Source: Janthinobacterium sp. SUN073 (lineage in GTDB: Bacteria > Pseudomonadota > Gammaproteobacteria > Burkholderiales > Burkholderiaceae_D). From it: 64,000 nucleotides of DNA. Under the pieces are notes generated by a model. It was not told the origin of the DNA, made no database searches, and saw only the letters and a program-made list of their open reading frames with translations. Where the stretch lies: the NCBI RefSeq assembly GCF_030397665.1, contig NZ_JAPUBT010000010.1, positions 124,001 through 188,000 on the forward strand, read 5' to 3'. Within the stretch, counting starts at the first letter, position 1. Each line of letters begins with the position of its first letter. Positions 44,037 to 51,210 of the stretch are shown in pieces. Made by a program: the position numbers and the translations under genes.

Positions 44037-46892
44037 TCAGAATTTGTATTTCACCCCCGCACTGACAAAGCGTCCCGCCGCGCCCGCGTAGTCGAGCGGG
44101 TTGTAGCCCGTGGCGCCATACGTGAGCGGATCGAGCGGGGCGATCTTGTCGAACAGGTTTTGCACCGTTGCAAACACTTCCAGCTTGGGCGTGGCCAGCC
44201 AGCGGGCCGTCAGGTCCACCGTCGTGAACGAGGCGATGCGGCAGCCGCGCGGCGCATCCGTACCGTCGGCGAAATGCGTGGCGCAGCCGTCCGGATCGTT
44301 CTTGAAGCTGATATTGTCGAGCGGCGCGCGGTAGTTGACATTGGCCGAGACGCGCCAGTTCTGGCGCTCCCAGGTGGCGCCCAGGTTGATGCGGTCAGCC
44401 GGCGTGCCCATGCAGTTGGAAACATCGCAATTGCCGTGCGTGCCGGCGAAATCGCGCTGCGTGCCGTCCTGCTCCGTGCGCAGCCATTTGTACAGATGCG
44501 TCCACTTCAGGTCGAACACCAGGTTGCCATAGTCGCCGCCCAGGTTGAAGCGCTGGCGCGCGTCGATATCGATGCCGCGCACCGTGGTTTGCGCGGAATT
44601 GACATAGCTGGCCAGCACGGCCGTGATGGCACCCGGATCGCCGGGCTTGTCGCTGGCCGTGGACGGGTCGCGCGCCACGTGGCCCTCGGCAATCGCCGTG
44701 TCCGTCTGTTCCTGGTTGATCTCATTCTTGCGGCGGATTTGCCACAGATCGACGGAAATGCTGCTGCGCGGCAGCGGGTCCCACACGGCGCCCACGGAAT
44801 AGCTGCGAGAACGCTCGGGCGACAGCCTGGGATTGGGCGAGGTGATGACGGCGATCGATGCGGGGTCGCACGCGACGTCCACGCCCAGCGCGCAGCGCAG
44901 CGGGTCGCTGGCGGTGGAGAAGGCCGCCAGGCCGCCAACGCCGTTTTCCGCCGCACTGGGCGCGCGGAAGCCCTTGGCGAAGGTGCCGCGCAGGGCCAGT
45001 TCGCGCACGGGAGTCCATTTTATGCCCACTTTCGGCGTGTAGGAATTGCCCACGTCAGTGAAATGGTCGGCGCGCAGGGCGCCCGACAGCTCCACGGTTT
45101 TCAGCACGGACGCCAGCACCTCCGCATACAGGGCCGAGGCGTTGCGGCTGCCCTTGTAGGCGGAATAACCGAGGCCGATGATATTGCCCCGTTCCGTGCC
45201 CGTGGTCGGGTTGAGTTCCGTCGATTCATGGCGGAATTCCGCACCCACGGCCACGCTCAGGCCGCCGCCGTCGAGCTTGGCCACCTCGCGGCTGGCCTTG
45301 AAGTCGATCTGCGCGATATGCGTCTTGGCGTCGTTCGAGATGCGTGGCGACAGGGCCGCGTACAGGGCGGGTGAATTGAGGCCCGCGTTTTCCGCGATGC
45401 GCCATACGCTGCCGGCGGGCAGGGCCGCATAGGCCGGGTTCAGGCGGGCCGCGGCCACATTCGCGTCGCTGGGGTTGAGCAGGGCGAAGGCCACGTCGCG
45501 CTGCAGGAAGCCGCCTTGCTCGTTCGCGACCTTGTTTTGTGAGTACAGCAGGGCGCTGTCGATGTCCCAGCCCGCCACGCTGCCCTTGATGCCGGCGACA
45601 AAGCGCGCAAAGGTGGAATCGACTTCCGAGGTGCGCGGGCCGACGTCGGCGGTCAGGTAACGCAGTCGTGCATCGCGGCCGAAGTAGGGATTGTCAGGAT
45701 GGCCGGCGCCCAGCGCCACTGCCGCATTGCTGACGGGGCCGCCAGGAAAACCCACCGAGCCACTGATGGTCGACGGCGTGGTGACGGAACTCGATTCGCT
45801 GTGATACAGATTCAGTTCCACATAGGTTTGCAGTGCCGGCGTCAGTTGCCAGGCGCCACGGCCAAAAAAATTGATGTTCTTTTGCTTGGGCTGGATCTGG
45901 CCATATTGTTGCGCGGCATCGGTCAGGCAGCCGCCACCCGGATCGCCTTGCGGGTGGTTTGTGAAGTTGCCGCAGGCGGCGCCGGGGAAGGTGCGCGTAA
46001 AGCCCACGCCGCCCAGGTTGCCACGGTTATAGTAATTGAAGGTGTCGGGATTGCGCACATTGCCGTTGACGGCGCTGCCGGCCGCATTGTTGTCGGTGAT
46101 GGCGCCGGCGCCACTGAGTGATTCCTGCGCGCTGAAGCCCAGGTCGCGCAAGTCGCTGCGGCCGACGGCGCCCCGTCCTGCCCGGTCGCGGTTCGAGATC
46201 GCCCCTTTTTCGCTGTATTCCAGGTTCAGCAGCACATTGTAGCGGTCGTTGTCGATATCGCCGAAACCGTGCGTGATGGACGCGCGCGCCTCGCGCCCAT
46301 CCCAGTCCTTGGTCTTGCCGTAATTGCCCTTCACGGCCGTGCCCTGGTAGTCGCCCCGCAGGATCACATTGACGACGCCGGCGATGGCGTCCGAGCCGTA
46401 GATGGCCGAGGCGCCATCCTTGAGGATTTCCACGCGTTCCACCGCTTCCAGGGGGATGATGTTCAGGTCGGCAAACACTTTCTGGCCGTCGTCGGCCAGG
46501 CCGTAGGGCGCCACGCGGCGCCCGTTCAGCAAGACCAGGGTCGACGCCGTGCCCAGGCCGCGCAGCGAGATGCCCGACGCGCCGGCGGCAAAGCCGCCGC
46601 TGAAGCTGGTAGGGACCGAGCCCTGGTTGTCGACGGCCAGGGTTTGCAGCAGTTCGGCCACGCTGGCCTTGCCCGATTTTTCAATGTCGGCAGCGCTCAG
46701 GGTTTGCACGGCCGAGGCTGTTTCAGCCTGGGCGCGGCGGATGTTCGAGCCGGTGATTTCCACGCGCTGCAGGGGCGCGGGTGCGGCATTGTCCTGTGCC
46801 AGGACGGGTAGACTCAGCAGTGCACTGGCCAGTGTCAGGCCCAGGCGTGGTGGTGAAAAGGCAGCTGGCTGAAACAAGGGTGTAGGGCTCAT
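44037..46892 (-). CDS. TonB-dependent outer-membrane receptor 3
   Basis: 951 residues. Signal peptide with cleavage near LLSLPVLA|QDN, plug start QRVEITGSNIRRAQAETASA, LVLLNGRRVAPYGLADDG, and VERVEILKDGASAIYGSDAIA. Barrel with loop Cys pair RCALGVDVAC and C-terminal SAGVKYKF. GGAGA precedes the ATG at 46892. Closest in motif detail to receptor 1. It interrupts the tldD-aroG neighbourhood and is transcribed against both flanks, and a repeat cluster adjoins its 3' end, which suggests a later insertion. Substrate unknown. Confidence 0.93.
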   Translation of the reverse strand: MSPTPLFQPAAFSPPRLGLTLASALLSLPVLAQDNAAPAPLQRVEITGSNIRRAQAETASAVQTLSAADIEKSGKASVAELLQTLAVDNQGSVPTSFSGGFAAGASGISLRGLGTASTLVLLNGRRVAPYGLADDGQKVFADLNIIPLEAVERVEILKDGASAIYGSDAIAGVVNVILRGDYQGTAVKGNYGKTKDWDGREARASITHGFGDIDNDRYNVLLNLEYSEKGAISNRDRAGRGAVGRSDLRDLGFSAQESLSGAGAITDNNAAGSAVNGNVRNPDTFNYYNRGNLGGVGFTRTFPGAACGNFTNHPQGDPGGGCLTDAAQQYGQIQPKQKNINFFGRGAWQLTPALQTYVELNLYHSESSSVTTPSTISGSVGFPGGPVSNAAVALGAGHPDNPYFGRDARLRYLTADVGPRTSEVDSTFARFVAGIKGSVAGWDIDSALLYSQNKVANEQGGFLQRDVAFALLNPSDANVAAARLNPAYAALPAGSVWRIAENAGLNSPALYAALSPRISNDAKTHIAQIDFKASREVAKLDGGGLSVAVGAEFRHESTELNPTTGTERGNIIGLGYSAYKGSRNASALYAEVLASVLKTVELSGALRADHFTDVGNSYTPKVGIKWTPVRELALRGTFAKGFRAPSAAENGVGGLAAFSTASDPLRCALGVDVACDPASIAVITSPNPRLSPERSRSYSVGAVWDPLPRSSISVDLWQIRRKNEINQEQTDTAIAEGHVARDPSTASDKPGDPGAITAVLASYVNSAQTTVRGIDIDARQRFNLGGDYGNLVFDLKWTHLYKWLRTEQDGTQRDFAGTHGNCDVSNCMGTPADRINLGATWERQNWRVSANVNYRAPLDNISFKNDPDGCATHFADGTDAPRGCRIASFTTVDLTARWLATPKLEVFATVQNLFDKIAPLDPLTYGATGYNPLDYAGAAGRFVSAGVKYKF

Positions 46893-47151: not shown

Positions 47152-47181
47152 TTGCCAATCCTTGCAATTTAGGTTTATAGT
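47152..47181 (+). promoter_or_regulatory. Sigma-70 promoter of the aroG leader transcript
   Basis: TTGCCA (-35) and TATAGT (-10) each match consensus at five of six positions and are 18 nt apart. Predicted transcription start is about 47188, just before the leader reading frame and about 200 nt before aroG. Confidence 0.65.
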
Positions 47182-47206
47182 CGTTCATCACTTATGGATG
47201 ACTCGC

Positions 47207-47275
47207 ATGTTCGCTCGCCACTTTTTTACCGCTTATTTTTACTTTAGCAATTCCAACCCAAAGGCGGTGGAGTAG
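47207..47275 (+). CDS. Phe/Tyr-rich leader peptide of aroG (22 codons)
   Basis: A short frame ATG...TAG whose residues 2-13 read FARHFFTAYFYF: five Phe and two Tyr in twelve codons, far above expectation, followed by SNSNPKAVE and stop. An in-frame ATG at 47198 would make it 25 codons. A weak GGAT ribosome site lies upstream. It sits between a good promoter and an intrinsic terminator ahead of aroG. By analogy with pheA leader peptides it should sense charged tRNA-Phe and/or tRNA-Tyr by ribosome stalling. Too short for routine gene callers; inferred, not proven. Confidence 0.7.
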   Translation: MFARHFFTAYFYFSNSNPKAVE

Positions 47276-47320
47276 CGGTCGGTTCACGTAGCAGCAAAAA
47301 ACGAGATCCCAGCAAATTCT

Positions 47321-47351
47321 AAAAAACCGCCACTGATGGCGGTTTTTTTTT
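47321..47351 (+). terminator. Attenuator terminator in the aroG leader
   Basis: AAAAAACCGCC, loop ACTGAT, GGCGGTTTTTT: an 11-bp stem with a run of nine T, located 41 nt before aroG in the same orientation. Its 5' arm ACCGCC (47326-47331) can instead pair with GGCGGT at 47263-47268, within the last codons of the leader peptide, giving a mutually exclusive antiterminator. Confidence 0.85.
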
Positions 47352-47391
47352 ACCCAGATGTTTTACCCTTCCTTAAATTTTGGAGAAAATG

Positions 47392-48456
47392 ATGCCCCGC
47401 ACCGATGATTTGCGAATTCGCGAAATGAAGGAATTGACCCCGCCGTCCCACCTGATCCGCGAATTCGCCTGCTCGGAGCAAGCCGAACAGACCGCTGCCA
47501 GCGCCCGTATCGCCCTGCACCGCATCCTGCACGGCCAGGATGACCGCCTGATGGTGGTCATCGGGCCTTGCTCCATCCACGATACCAAGGCGGCGATGGA
47601 ATATGCGCGCCTGCTGGTCAAGGAGCGCGCGCGTTTCGCCGGTGAACTGGAAATCGTCATGCGCGTCTACTTCGAGAAGCCGCGCACCACGGTGGGCTGG
47701 AAGGGCCTGATCAACGACCCGTACATGGACAACAGCTTCCGCATCAATGACGGCTTGCGCATGGCGCGCGAACTGTTGCGCGATATCAATGAGCTGGGCT
47801 TGCCGGCTGGCACGGAATTCCTCGACGTCATCAGCCCGCAATACATCGCCGACCTGATCAGCTGGGGCGCCATCGGCGCGCGCACCACGGAGTCGCAGGT
47901 GCACCGCGAGCTGGCCTCGGGACTGTCCTGTCCCGTCGGCTTCAAGAATGGCACGGACGGCAATGTGAAAATCGCCGTGGAAGCCATCAAGGCCGCCTCG
48001 CAGCCGCACCATTTCCTCTCCGTCACGAAGGGCGGCCACTCGGCCATCGTGTCGACCAACGGCAATGAGGATTGCCACATCATCTTGCGCGGTGGAAAAA
48101 CCCCGAACTATGACGCGGCCAGCGTGGACGAGGCCTGCAAGGCGATCGCCGCGCAGGGCCTGGCAGCGCGCCTGATGATCGACGCCTCGCATGCGAACAG
48201 CTCGAAAAAACCGGAAAACCAGATCCCCGTGTGTGCCGACATCGCCAGCCAGGTGGCCGGCGGCGACAGCCGCATCGTCGGCGTGATGGTGGAATCGCAC
48301 CTGGTGGCAGGGCGCCAGGATTTGATCCCGGGCAAGGAATTGATCTATGGCCAATCCGTCACGGATGGCTGCATCGACTGGAGCGCCAGCGTGGCCGTGC
48401 TGGAAAACCTGGCGCAAGCCGTGAAGCTGCGCCGCCTGCAGGGCGACAAGGAATGA
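47392..48456 (+). CDS. aroG: 3-deoxy-7-phosphoheptulonate synthase (DAHP synthase), class I
   Basis: 354 residues. Catalyses phosphoenolpyruvate + erythrose-4-phosphate to DAHP, the first step of the shikimate pathway. Motifs: VVIGPCSIHD (about 56-65), VYFEKPRTTVGWKGLINDP (PEP/phosphate binding), GARTTESQVHRELASGLSCP, DASHANSSKKPENQ and GVMVESHLVAGRQD. Length matches the E. coli AroF/G/H family. GGAGA lies 5 nt before ATG 47392; ATG 47389 is too close to it. Erythrose-4-phosphate comes from transketolase, also in this window. Expression is probably attenuated through the leader upstream. Confidence 0.96.
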   Translation: MPRTDDLRIREMKELTPPSHLIREFACSEQAEQTAASARIALHRILHGQDDRLMVVIGPCSIHDTKAAMEYARLLVKERARFAGELEIVMRVYFEKPRTTVGWKGLINDPYMDNSFRINDGLRMARELLRDINELGLPAGTEFLDVISPQYIADLISWGAIGARTTESQVHRELASGLSCPVGFKNGTDGNVKIAVEAIKAASQPHHFLSVTKGGHSAIVSTNGNEDCHIILRGGKTPNYDAASVDEACKAIAAQGLAARLMIDASHANSSKKPENQIPVCADIASQVAGGDSRIVGVMVESHLVAGRQDLIPGKELIYGQSVTDGCIDWSASVAVLENLAQAVKLRRLQGDKE

Positions 48457-48480: not shown

Positions 48481-48515
48481 AAAAACCCCGGAAAGCTAAG
48501 CTTTCCGGGGTTTTT
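48481..48515. terminator. Bidirectional terminator between aroG and receptor 4
   Basis: Perfect inverted repeat AAAAACCCCGGAAAGC / GCTTTCCGGGGTTTTT with a 3-nt loop; both strands end in T runs. It serves aroG on the plus strand and receptor 4 on the minus strand. Confidence 0.92.
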
Positions 48516-48546: not shown

Positions 48547-51210
48547 TTAGAACTTGTACGTGGCGCGCACGTAGAAGGTACGGCCCAGCGGATCGGCGTA
48601 ACGCGGATCGTAGCCGGACTGGAACGTCGTGTACTGGTTGGTGAACGGTGGATCTTCGTTCAGCAGGTTTTTCACGCCCACGGTCAGTTCCGTGTTCTTG
48701 AAGCCCGAATACATGCCCGACAGCGACCAGATCGAGTATGCCTTGACCTTTTGCTTGAATTCGTCGTCGACGTCGTTCATGTCGTGGTAGCCGCTCATGT
48801 ACTTGTTCGACAAGGTGGCGTTCCACTGAGCCAGGTTCCAGTTCAGCGAAGCATTATGTCTCCAGCGGAACACCGGGCCATTTTCGCCATACACGCCCAC
48901 GTTTTGCACGTATTCGCCGTTGCGCTCGTTCTGGTACTCATATTTCTGCACCCAGGTGCCGTCGAAGGCAAAGGTGACATTGCCATACTGGCTGCGTGGC
49001 AATCTCCAGTTCAAGCCCAGATCGACACCCGCAGTATGCATTTCGCCCAGGTTTTCCAGCGGGGACAGCACATAATCGAGCGCGTTGCCATTGGCCGAGT
49101 ATACGAAGTTGTTCTGGTACTTATCGTATTTGTCGAACAGGGTTTGTTCAGCCACCCGGTCGATCTTGTCGCGCAGCTTGATCTGGAAGTAGTCGAGCGA
49201 GACGGTCAGCGATTTCGTTGGCTCGAGCACGATACCGGCGCTGAAGGTCTTCGATTTTTCCGGCTTGATTTCCGGATTGCCGCCCGAGCGGATGTATTGC
49301 TGCGTGCTGCAAGCCGAATTTTCATTCGCGCCAGGGATGGCTACGCCGCCTGGGCACAGACGTGGATCGCTGTACTTGCCGGCCGTAAAGGTCTTGCTCA
49401 TCGGACCATGCAGGTCATACAGGGTTGGAGCGCGGAAGCCCGTGTTGTACGAGCTGCGGAACAGGATCTGGTTGGTCGGCTGCCAGCGTACACCGACTTT
49501 TGGATTGAAGCTGCCACCGACATCGTTGTAATGGTCGTAACGGGCTGCCAGCGACAGTTCGAGATTTTTCACGACAGGGATGCTCAGTTCCGTAAAGATG
49601 GCGGCAATATTACGGCTGCCCGACTGGTCCTTGGCTTCGGCATAGCCGGAGCTCGACGCTTGCGAAGCGAGCGCCGTGTTGATGTCGTATTCCGCCTTTT
49701 CATTGCGGAATTCGGTACCGACGGCAAAGCCGACGGCGCCCGCTGGCAGGTTGTAGATTTCACGGCTGATCTTGGCGTCGACCGCGGTGCTGGTCATCTT
49801 GGCGCTCAGGTACTCACCTTGCAACAAGGACTTTTTCAGGTAATCCAGGCCGGCGGCGCTTTGCTGGCCGAACGGATTGAGCACGCCACTGGCCACGCCG
49901 TCGATCATGCGCTGGTCGCCCAGGTAGCCGTTGACGAAGGCGCTGGTGGCTTTGCTCACGGAGTAGCTCAGACCGACGTTGTAGTCCCAGCCGGCAACGA
50001 TGCCTTCGGACGCGGCAACCAGGCGGTCCGAGGTGCTGGTGTCGAAGCCGATGCGCTGGCCCATGTCCATCGGACGCCAGCTCAGGTCGAGGTTTTCACC
50101 TGCCAGGCCAGGAACGGCAGGTACACCGGCGCTGCCGCCCGGATAGTATGGCGAATTTTTGTCCATGATCAGGCCGATGCGCGTCAAGGTCGGCGGCGTG
50201 ATGCGCGACTCATTGGTGCTGCGTGCGTGCAGGTATTCGAGGGTGGCCAGGTGATCCTGGTTGATCTTGAAGCTGGCCTTGCCCAGGAACGATTCCTGGT
50301 TGGTCTTCGGAATGTCCTGGATGTACGGCGCGGCGTCAAACGCGCAGGTCGGACGGCCACTCGGATTCGGACGCAGGTTTTCGCCCACGCAGCCACCGGC
50401 AAACGCCGGGTTGCCGGAGAATACTTGATCCGGATCTTTATTGATCGTGGTGAAGTTGGCGATCGGCGTCGTGCTGCTGAGGTTATTCACGCCCTTGTTC
50501 GGCACATAGCCGTTGGCCGAGAAAGCGCGGTCGCTGGCGTTCAGCGCCGACTGGCGGTGCACGTCAACGACGCCGAAGACGTTGAAGCCATCCTTGTTCA
50601 GATCGCCATAGCCGGCGGACAGGTTCAGGCGCGACTCGTCGCCGCCACCCGATTTTTGTGGCTCGTAGTGTTCCACGGTCACGGAACCGCCCTTGACCGA
50701 GCGCTTGGTGATGAAGTTGATGACGCCGCCGATGGCGTCGGTACCGTAGATGGCGGACGCGCCGTCGCGCAGCACTTCCACTCTTTCCAGGGCCGAGACG
50801 GGAATGATATTCAGGTCGACGGACGAGCCGTTGAACGGATGGCTGGCGATGCGCCGGCCATTCAGCAGCACCAGGGTCTTGTCGCCGCCGATGCCGCGCA
50901 GGTCGGCGACGGATTGGCCGCCCGTGCCTGCACCCACCGATTGGCTGCTGCCCTGGGTACTTTGATTCATGGAAATGGTGGACAGGACTTCCTGTGCCGT
51001 CGTCAAGCCTTGCTTGGCAAAGTCGCTGGCTTTGATCGACGTGATCGGCAACGCCGTTTCAGACGACAAGCGCTTGATGCTCGAACCGGTGACTTCCACG
51101 CGCTGCATGGTGCCATCTGTTGTTTCTTGCGCATACGCGGTGTGCATGCTCAGGGCCATGCCGCCTGCAAACATCAGGCGCAGCGACCGCGATATTACAT
51201 TTTCTATCAT
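48547..51210 (-). CDS. TonB-dependent outer-membrane receptor 4
   Basis: 887 residues. Signal peptide (LRLMFAGGMALSMHTAYA|QET), plug with QRVEVTGSSIKRLSSETALP, FAKQGLTTAQEVLSTISMNQ, LVLLNGRRIASHPFNGSS and ERVEVLRDGASAIYGTDAIG. Barrel with Cys pair LCPGG...ACSTQ and C-terminus FYVRATYKF. AAGGAA precedes the ATG. Clearly paralogous to receptor 5 immediately upstream on the same strand, with shared plug motifs, Cys pair and C-terminal DPLGR motif. It lies near a peptide ABC operon; substrate unknown. Confidence 0.93.
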   Translation of the reverse strand: MIENVISRSLRLMFAGGMALSMHTAYAQETTDGTMQRVEVTGSSIKRLSSETALPITSIKASDFAKQGLTTAQEVLSTISMNQSTQGSSQSVGAGTGGQSVADLRGIGGDKTLVLLNGRRIASHPFNGSSVDLNIIPVSALERVEVLRDGASAIYGTDAIGGVINFITKRSVKGGSVTVEHYEPQKSGGGDESRLNLSAGYGDLNKDGFNVFGVVDVHRQSALNASDRAFSANGYVPNKGVNNLSSTTPIANFTTINKDPDQVFSGNPAFAGGCVGENLRPNPSGRPTCAFDAAPYIQDIPKTNQESFLGKASFKINQDHLATLEYLHARSTNESRITPPTLTRIGLIMDKNSPYYPGGSAGVPAVPGLAGENLDLSWRPMDMGQRIGFDTSTSDRLVAASEGIVAGWDYNVGLSYSVSKATSAFVNGYLGDQRMIDGVASGVLNPFGQQSAAGLDYLKKSLLQGEYLSAKMTSTAVDAKISREIYNLPAGAVGFAVGTEFRNEKAEYDINTALASQASSSGYAEAKDQSGSRNIAAIFTELSIPVVKNLELSLAARYDHYNDVGGSFNPKVGVRWQPTNQILFRSSYNTGFRAPTLYDLHGPMSKTFTAGKYSDPRLCPGGVAIPGANENSACSTQQYIRSGGNPEIKPEKSKTFSAGIVLEPTKSLTVSLDYFQIKLRDKIDRVAEQTLFDKYDKYQNNFVYSANGNALDYVLSPLENLGEMHTAGVDLGLNWRLPRSQYGNVTFAFDGTWVQKYEYQNERNGEYVQNVGVYGENGPVFRWRHNASLNWNLAQWNATLSNKYMSGYHDMNDVDDEFKQKVKAYSIWSLSGMYSGFKNTELTVGVKNLLNEDPPFTNQYTTFQSGYDPRYADPLGRTFYVRATYKF

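Follow-up and report, generated by a model that had tools for sequence, protein, structure and literature searches.

Upstream of the gene encoding DAHP synthase (3-deoxy-7-phosphoheptulonate synthase, aroG; 47392..48456, + strand), which is the first gene of the aromatic amino acid pathway, the window, i.e. the whole stretch of 64,000 nucleotides that was analysed, contains a short reading frame crowded with phenylalanine and tyrosine codons and, behind it, an intrinsic terminator. This raises the question whether transcription of aroG depends on translation of that frame. Ribosome-mediated attenuation is a textbook mechanism, and the aroG leader very probably represents a classical ribosome-mediated transcription attenuator, as judged from comparison of related loci and from modelling of RNA pairing. 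The parts, their conservation, the changes in pairing and the association with one gene are matters of observation. The sequence-only reading of this DNA had proposed attenuation of the trp/phe type, a view that was supported by the comparative tests, most of which spoke in its favour.

Parts of the aroG leader

The gene 3' of the leader was assigned by its score against NF006723 AroG (582.5 bits; cut-off 568), which places it in the pathway of the amino acids putatively sensed. The promoter, the frame, the GGCGGT segment and the terminator named in the sequence-only reading were all present where it had placed them, with aroG starting at 47392. The sigma-70-type promoter-like sequence TTGCCA-N18-TATAGT (47152..47181, +) agrees with the hexamers at 10 of 12 positions, and is weak taken alone, since one such sequence was found against 0.6 in shuffles of the region. 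The leader peptide frame (MFARHFFTAYFYFSNSNPKAVE, 22 codons followed by TAG; 47207..47275, +) encodes five Phe (residues 2, 6, 7, 11, and 13) and two Tyr (residues 10 and 12), together seven of residues 2-13. Among the frames of 8-40 codons opened by 779 ATG starts in the 64-kb window, it was the only one with at least six Phe, Tyr, or Trp in 12 residues, being counted there from two nested ATGs.

Four regions make up the candidate attenuator. Region 1 covers leader codons 8-17 (ACCGCT..GC.ATTCCA; 47228..47255, +) and has its partner, the 3' arm of the 1:2 helix, in the leader's last codons and the stop codon (47268..47279, +), as indicated by folds and pair counts and, for region 1, by a permutation test. 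Region 2, GGCGGT (47263..47268, +), lies in the leader's last codons, and its complement, region 3 (ACCGCC; 47326..47331, +), lies in the 5' arm of the intrinsic terminator, as pair counts and folds indicate. This terminator, made of regions 3 and 4 (47321..47351, +), has up to 12 pairs and a run of nine T (47343-47351). Folding of its hairpin (47323-47351) gave -13.5 kcal/mol and a z-score of -4.4, none of 200 shuffles being as good; for the entire leader RNA, the z-score was -2.4, with 2 of 200 shuffles as good. The hairpin at 47321-47351 was absent from the list of a simple terminator scan, probably because its stem runs into the T tract.

Genes for TonB-dependent receptors (Pfam PF00593 and PF07715) occupy the other strand on both sides of aroG (44037-46892 and 48547-51210, both -). 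A hairpin of 16 pairs, rich in A and T at its ends (48481-48515), separates aroG from the TonB receptor gene that converges on it; this hairpin, which was on the + strand list of the scan, looks like a two-way terminator.

Conservation and pairing among aroG upstream regions

Comparison was made over 81 upstream regions, namely the window and the best 80 of 588 confirmed aroG loci from a scan of genome contigs, the latter stemming from Oxalobacteraceae, Burkholderiaceae (Paraburkholderia, Caballeronia, Mycetohabitans, and Burkholderia), and metagenome bins. In 80 of these 81 regions, a leader frame rich in aromatic codons precedes a G+C-rich terminator; 77 were recognised by an automatic rule and three (L063, L071, and L075) via a motif search. 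The rule missed L063 and L075 because it chose another hairpin, and L071 because its leader frame is extended and, past the FYFYF codons, differs from those of its relatives; the latter locus, from Candidatus Burkholderia humilis, has kept its terminator. One upstream region among the best 80 of 588 loci plus the window (L018) contained neither leader nor terminator. The combination is therefore not due to chance, given its presence in 80 of 81 regions and the places beside aroG that a covariance model found (see below).

According to the C-terminal part of the leader, the 80 sequences from the best 80 of 588 loci plus the window were divided into group A (37, with the window), group B (25), and group C (18 Burkholderiaceae; L061-L065, L067-L073, and L075-L080). 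Phe was found in all 80 leaders, Tyr in 78, and Trp in 31. In group A, position 11 was Phe in 36 of 37 leaders and Tyr in one, position 12 was Tyr in 30, Trp in six, and His in one, and position 13 was Phe throughout. Conservation of the aromatic codons together with the hairpin, the comparison that the sequence-only reading had called for, was thus found in the related regions; a conserved hairpin behind leader codons that are not conserved did not occur. In group A, which includes the window, 34 of 37 sequences have the TTGCCA/TATAGT pair no more than 75 nt 5' of the leader; in group B it was seen in 6 of 25 (L052, one of the 25, lacks this DNA), and in group C in none of 18, again among the best 80 of 588 loci plus the window.

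Signs of leader translation differed between the groups. A Shine-Dalgarno-like match preceded the leader in 33 of 37 group A and 7 of 25 group B sequences (best 80 of 588 loci plus the window), and a simple match of this kind was found before none of the 18 group C leaders (best 80 of 588 loci). The entropies at codon positions 1, 2, and 3 were 0.435, 0.470, and 0.439 in group A, i.e. without a coding signature, RNA pairing also constraining the bases used for this measure there. A third-position signature was weak in group B and strong in group C (0.054, 0.071, and 0.321), and this codon-position pattern suggests that the group C leader frame is translated.

The pause-hairpin pairing, which the sequence-only reading had not settled, proved to be a helix in which leader codons pair with the stop-codon region; it varies in concert across species and sequesters GGCGGT. 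In group A, the leader segments ACC[G/T]GC and GC.ATTCCA pair with TGGAGTAGC and GC[A/C]GGT around and 3' of the stop codon; a direct pairing of ACCGC of region 1 with region 2 is also possible. Over the group A sequences among the best 80 of 588 loci plus the window, 93.2% of 517 cells of this 1:2 helix were paired, against 54% or less when the partner was slid by up to three columns, and one of its pairs occurred as GC in 19 sequences, UA in 11, and CG in one, and was unpaired in six. The near fixation of the AGC and TCC Ser codons behind the aromatic cluster finds a reason in this pairing. In group B, another leader stretch (in L052, GCTTTTAC) finds its complement downstream of the stop codon (GTAAAAGC). 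For the search of such leader helices, 29 sequences were folded. With their own partner, group A leaders reached -19.4 kcal/mol compared to -17.7 kcal/mol with the partner from another row, and group B leaders -19.1 compared to -16.3 kcal/mol, none of 2000 permutations being as good in either group. Hence, a 1:2 helix burying region 2 was found in groups A and B. The same own-partner test of the distal helix in group C found 1857 of 2000 permutations as good; there, region 1 is TCCGCCA or similar near the leader start, a direct complement of region 2 over 5-8 bases.

The terminator was paired in 330 of 330 group A cells (best 80 of 588 loci plus the window), with changes from AU to UA in seven and from AU to GC in three sequences, and two of its pairs showed double changes. 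The antiterminator GGCGGT:ACCGCC was kept in all 37 group A sequences (222 of 222 cells), region 2 being invariant, and a perfect match of at least six bases between regions 2 and 3 was present in 61 of the 62 group A and B sequences (both among the best 80 of 588 loci plus the window). In the 18 Burkholderiaceae of group C, it is replaced by a match of 8-9 bases between region 2 (GCTGGCGG) and the terminator (CCGCCAGC), 144 of 144 cells being paired over eight pairs (best 80 of 588 loci). The pairing in groups A, B, and C therefore indicates that the match between regions 2 and 3 has been kept despite changed letters and register. Mutually exclusive 2:3 antiterminator and 3:4 terminator helices between leader and aroG were thus predicted from sequence and from modelling.

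Of the covarying stems that the sequence-only reading had called for, the terminator and the 1:2 helix of groups A and B did change in step; the antiterminator core is nearly invariant within the groups and so gave no covariation signal. Pairs changed on both sides numbered two in the 1:2 helix and two in the terminator, in neither case above shuffles (265 and 102 of 500, respectively). RNAalifold on the group alignments recovered part of the helices only, without the distal helix, in our view because insertions and deletions displace it, and per-sequence pairing tests replaced it. The antiterminator stem, taken to be as short as 6 bp in the sequence-only reading, is longer: in the window, inner pairs extend GGCGGT:ACCGCC to a segment of -18.3 kcal/mol (predicted), and such pairs were also seen in the 14 other sequences folded.

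Predicted mechanism and alternative explanations

From these parts we infer the start site, translation of the leader, stalling, the read-through response, and the amino acid of most importance as follows. RNA polymerase would start near 47188 and a ribosome would enter the 22-codon leader. If charged tRNA-Phe or tRNA-Tyr ran short, this ribosome would stall on the Phe-Tyr-Phe cluster and cover region 1, so that GGCGGT would stay free to pair with ACCGCC, no terminator would form, and aroG would be transcribed. With charged tRNAs at hand, the ribosome would reach the stop codon and cover GGCGGT, whereupon the terminator would form and transcription would end near 47351. Without translation, the 1:2 helix would bury GGCGGT, making termination the default.

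This scheme was examined with a masking model, a non-kinetic equilibrium calculation on RNA cut just after region 3, in which the ribosome masks the RNA to a point 12 nt 3' of the A-site codon's first base (its assumed edge) and the pairing probability of the cores of regions 2 and 3 is returned. For the window, a ribosome at Phe11, Tyr12, or Phe13 (codons 11-13; 47237..47245, +), the aromatic codons predicted to be the best stall positions, gave a 2:3 probability of 0.96-1.00, compared to 0.60 at Phe2 and 0.42 at Phe6, Phe7, and Tyr10. The probability was 0.00 without a ribosome and also 0.00 at the stop codon, the latter value reflecting geometry and being no finding, as region 2 of the window starts 10 nt before the stop codon. 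The non-aromatic codons His5, Ser14, and Asn15 gave 0.90-1.00 as well, so what the model supports is the position of the codons, not their identity. Over the best 80 of 588 loci plus the window, the mean probability at aromatic codons was 0.78 in group A, 0.95 in group B, and 0.95 in group C, exceeding 0.5 in 36 of 37, 25 of 25, and 17 of 18 sequences, respectively. The group means were 0.00 at the stop codon and, without a ribosome, 0.02 (A), 0.09 (B), and 0.07 (C), with 37 of 37, 22 of 25, and 17 of 18 sequences of the same sample (best 80 of 588 loci plus the window) below 0.5. Shuffling of region 1 raised the no-ribosome value from 0.016 to 0.32 (bases) or 0.17 (codons) in group A and from 0.09 to 0.67 or 0.47 in group B; group C changed from 0.069 to 0.131 by base and 0.294 by codon, a weak control. 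The low no-ribosome value is therefore informative in groups A and B, and hardly so in group C.

The placement of the aromatic codons agrees with codon stalling. Indeed, 573 of 584 aromatic codons are positioned where the ribosome would not yet cover region 2, and in 75 of the 80 leaders the last one lies 0-2 codons before the limit at which region 2 becomes masked, the five exceptions having extra aromatic residues beyond it (all among the best 80 of 588 loci plus the window).

Other modes of action have to be weighed against ribosome-mediated attenuation. Tryptophan is sensed by TnaC through nascent-peptide arrest, and the aromatic peptide might likewise arrest the ribosome by itself, thereby sensing a free metabolite instead of uncharged tRNA. 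The good conservation of its C-terminal FYFS.S.P.AVE in Oxalobacteraceae speaks for this; however, the peptides of Burkholderiaceae (MSAKFYFYFFWHLKPLADREG) and of other families have hardly anything in common with it beyond aromatic richness, and the conserved bases after FYF in group A are explained by pairing. Given also that the position of the last aromatic codon in those 75 of 80 leaders (best 80 of 588 loci plus the window) is the one that codon stalling needs, peptide arrest is very unlikely. Released attenuator RNAs act in trans in rhizobia, and here the promoter and terminator positions predict a discrete RNA of approximately 164 nt. The terminator might thus only end transcription by default and set free a small RNA or protein acting in trans, aroG itself not being regulated through it. 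Such a product needs neither the terminator-competing 2:3 pairing, which is kept in all groups, nor a place directly 5' of aroG, where the 14 best covariance-model places in the order were found (see below), and we give this explanation slightly less credence still, bearing in mind that a trans-acting role and an attenuator role do not exclude each other.

Finally, the leader might not be translated and might instead be a metabolite-binding riboswitch, a T-box, or a protein-bound leader. The strong nucleotide conservation after the stop codon in group A (GGTTCACG) and the codon-position pattern of that group, devoid of a coding signature, would be in line with this. Yet no Rfam family reached its gathering score here nor, apart from a tRNA gene, in ten related loci, and aromatic-rich frames persist in divergent families, which makes an untranslated regulator the least credible explanation, with next to no probability.

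Distribution, precedents and the amino acids putatively sensed

The reach of the element was assessed in genomes drawn from 145 searched for the family, 120 for the order, and 184 for the class, with one, rarely two, per genus or family, this sample overlapping with the best 80 of 588 loci. In the window's family, represented by 40 genomes from 39 genera other than the window's own, a formal leader-plus-terminator rule recognised the element in 36; it did so in 10 of 40 genomes of the order (37 families) and in none of 20 genomes of the wider class, which were 20 of the higher-scoring places. Among the four family misses, the element was absent from two of the 40 representatives (L092 and L112), the upstream region of L113 was cut by the contig end, and L122 had the terminator behind a leader with three aromatic residues only. 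One order genome scored as a miss (L139) had the leader with an imperfect hairpin. L018 and L092 probably represent one genome; there, aroG has neither leader nor terminator and directly follows a gene that by eye resembles tldD, an arrangement that is different and perhaps older.

A covariance model, R1, was built from the group A alignment (37 sequences, window included). In the host genome, it scored 156 bits at the aroG leader, by construction as a training sequence, and the next places reached 23 bits, on the opposite strand of the leader's terminator, and 20 bits at a different locus; a second convincing R1 place was not found in that genome. Neither a leader nor a terminator of this type was found in the 600 bases upstream of the host's second DAHP synthase gene (L082, C1:1094842-1095870). 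In 120 genomes of the order, 97 of which possess the DAHP synthase family, R1 found 43 places in 36 genomes at E-values up to 0.01, their position relative to aroG being matched by eye. All 14 best places (E-value of 9.4e-5 or better) lay directly 5' of aroG, 11 of them outside the family, as did 7 of the other 29. Of these 21 places, three belong to the window's family and 18 are spread over 11 further families. The 22 of 43 places away from aroG had E-values of 6.7e-4 or worse and were taken for terminator-only matches. The cis element is thus specific enough for detection by a covariance model, and it predicts how Burkholderiales would regulate the flow of carbon into the aromatic amino acids and into compounds made from these.

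No family for the leader was found in Rfam, NCBIfam, or Pfam, and its score against the Rfam family Phe_leader (RF01859) was 23.5 bits compared to a gathering score of 55. The attenuators of E. coli pheA (pheL), pheST, and trp (trpL) combine 1:2, 2:3, and 3:4 helices with regulatory codons in a short leader. The aroG leader shares this logic, and the target genes differ. These three E. coli attenuators are named in PMC11802643. The sequence-only reading knew of no well-characterised Phe/Tyr leader on a DAHP synthase gene, and this has to be amended, such leaders not being unknown. In Corynebacterium glutamicum, aroR, a leader with Phe-Tyr-Phe, precedes aroF (Neshat et al. 2014, as described in the review PMC11802643 and in PMC4046766), transcription of aroF being enhanced under Phe limitation and not affected by Tyr limitation (PMC11802643); aroR-aroF is also listed with a putative leader peptide in PMC4046766. 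As far as these descriptions allow a comparison, aroR-aroF resembles the present locus in carrying Phe-Tyr-Phe 5' of a DAHP synthase gene, but belongs to an actinobacterium and has a target named aroF; our guess is that both leaders are of convergent origin. Further, the uORFC-13-1 motif 5' of Acholeplasma aroF is a predicted Phe leader with 24 representatives (PMC8632094, which also points to an earlier hypothesis on E. coli aroF). According to that description, it likewise places a Phe leader and a terminator before a DAHP synthase gene, but in another phylum and as a prediction only. The main text of a survey of premature terminators (PMC2965389) contains neither aroG nor DAHP, and surveys of proteobacterial attenuators (Vitreschak 2004; Panina 2001) are cited in PMC1262725. 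A report of an aroG leader attenuator in Burkholderiales was not recognised in searches of open-licence papers. The aroG leader is a well-supported case of a known kind of attenuator, with a target gene that has precedents in other phyla.

It is conceivable, if somewhat doubtful, that in Burkholderiales the combined availability of every end product of the aromatic pathway is sensed by a single leader, in which Phe, Tyr, and often Trp codons share a stall cluster. This idea is based on the 31 of 80 leaders that contain Trp, in 28 of which a Trp codon precedes the masking limit (best 80 of 588 loci plus the window); leaders with all three aromatics were also found in other families. If true, the DAHP synthase gene would obtain an OR-type response by transcription attenuation, and the codon make-up of the leader would be tuned by lineage. 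Leaders of one and the same gene with varied sets of Phe, Tyr, and Trp codons constitute a natural series for testing the amino acid specificity of attenuation. Codon choice within the leaders is peculiar as well: the 80 leaders (47207-47275 and L001-L080 except L018; best 80 of 588 loci plus the window) contain 291 TTT and 86 TTC codons for Phe, and the aroG genes that follow, counted over their opening 350 codons, 424 TTC and 95 TTT. Leader codons may have been selected for slow decoding or low structure.
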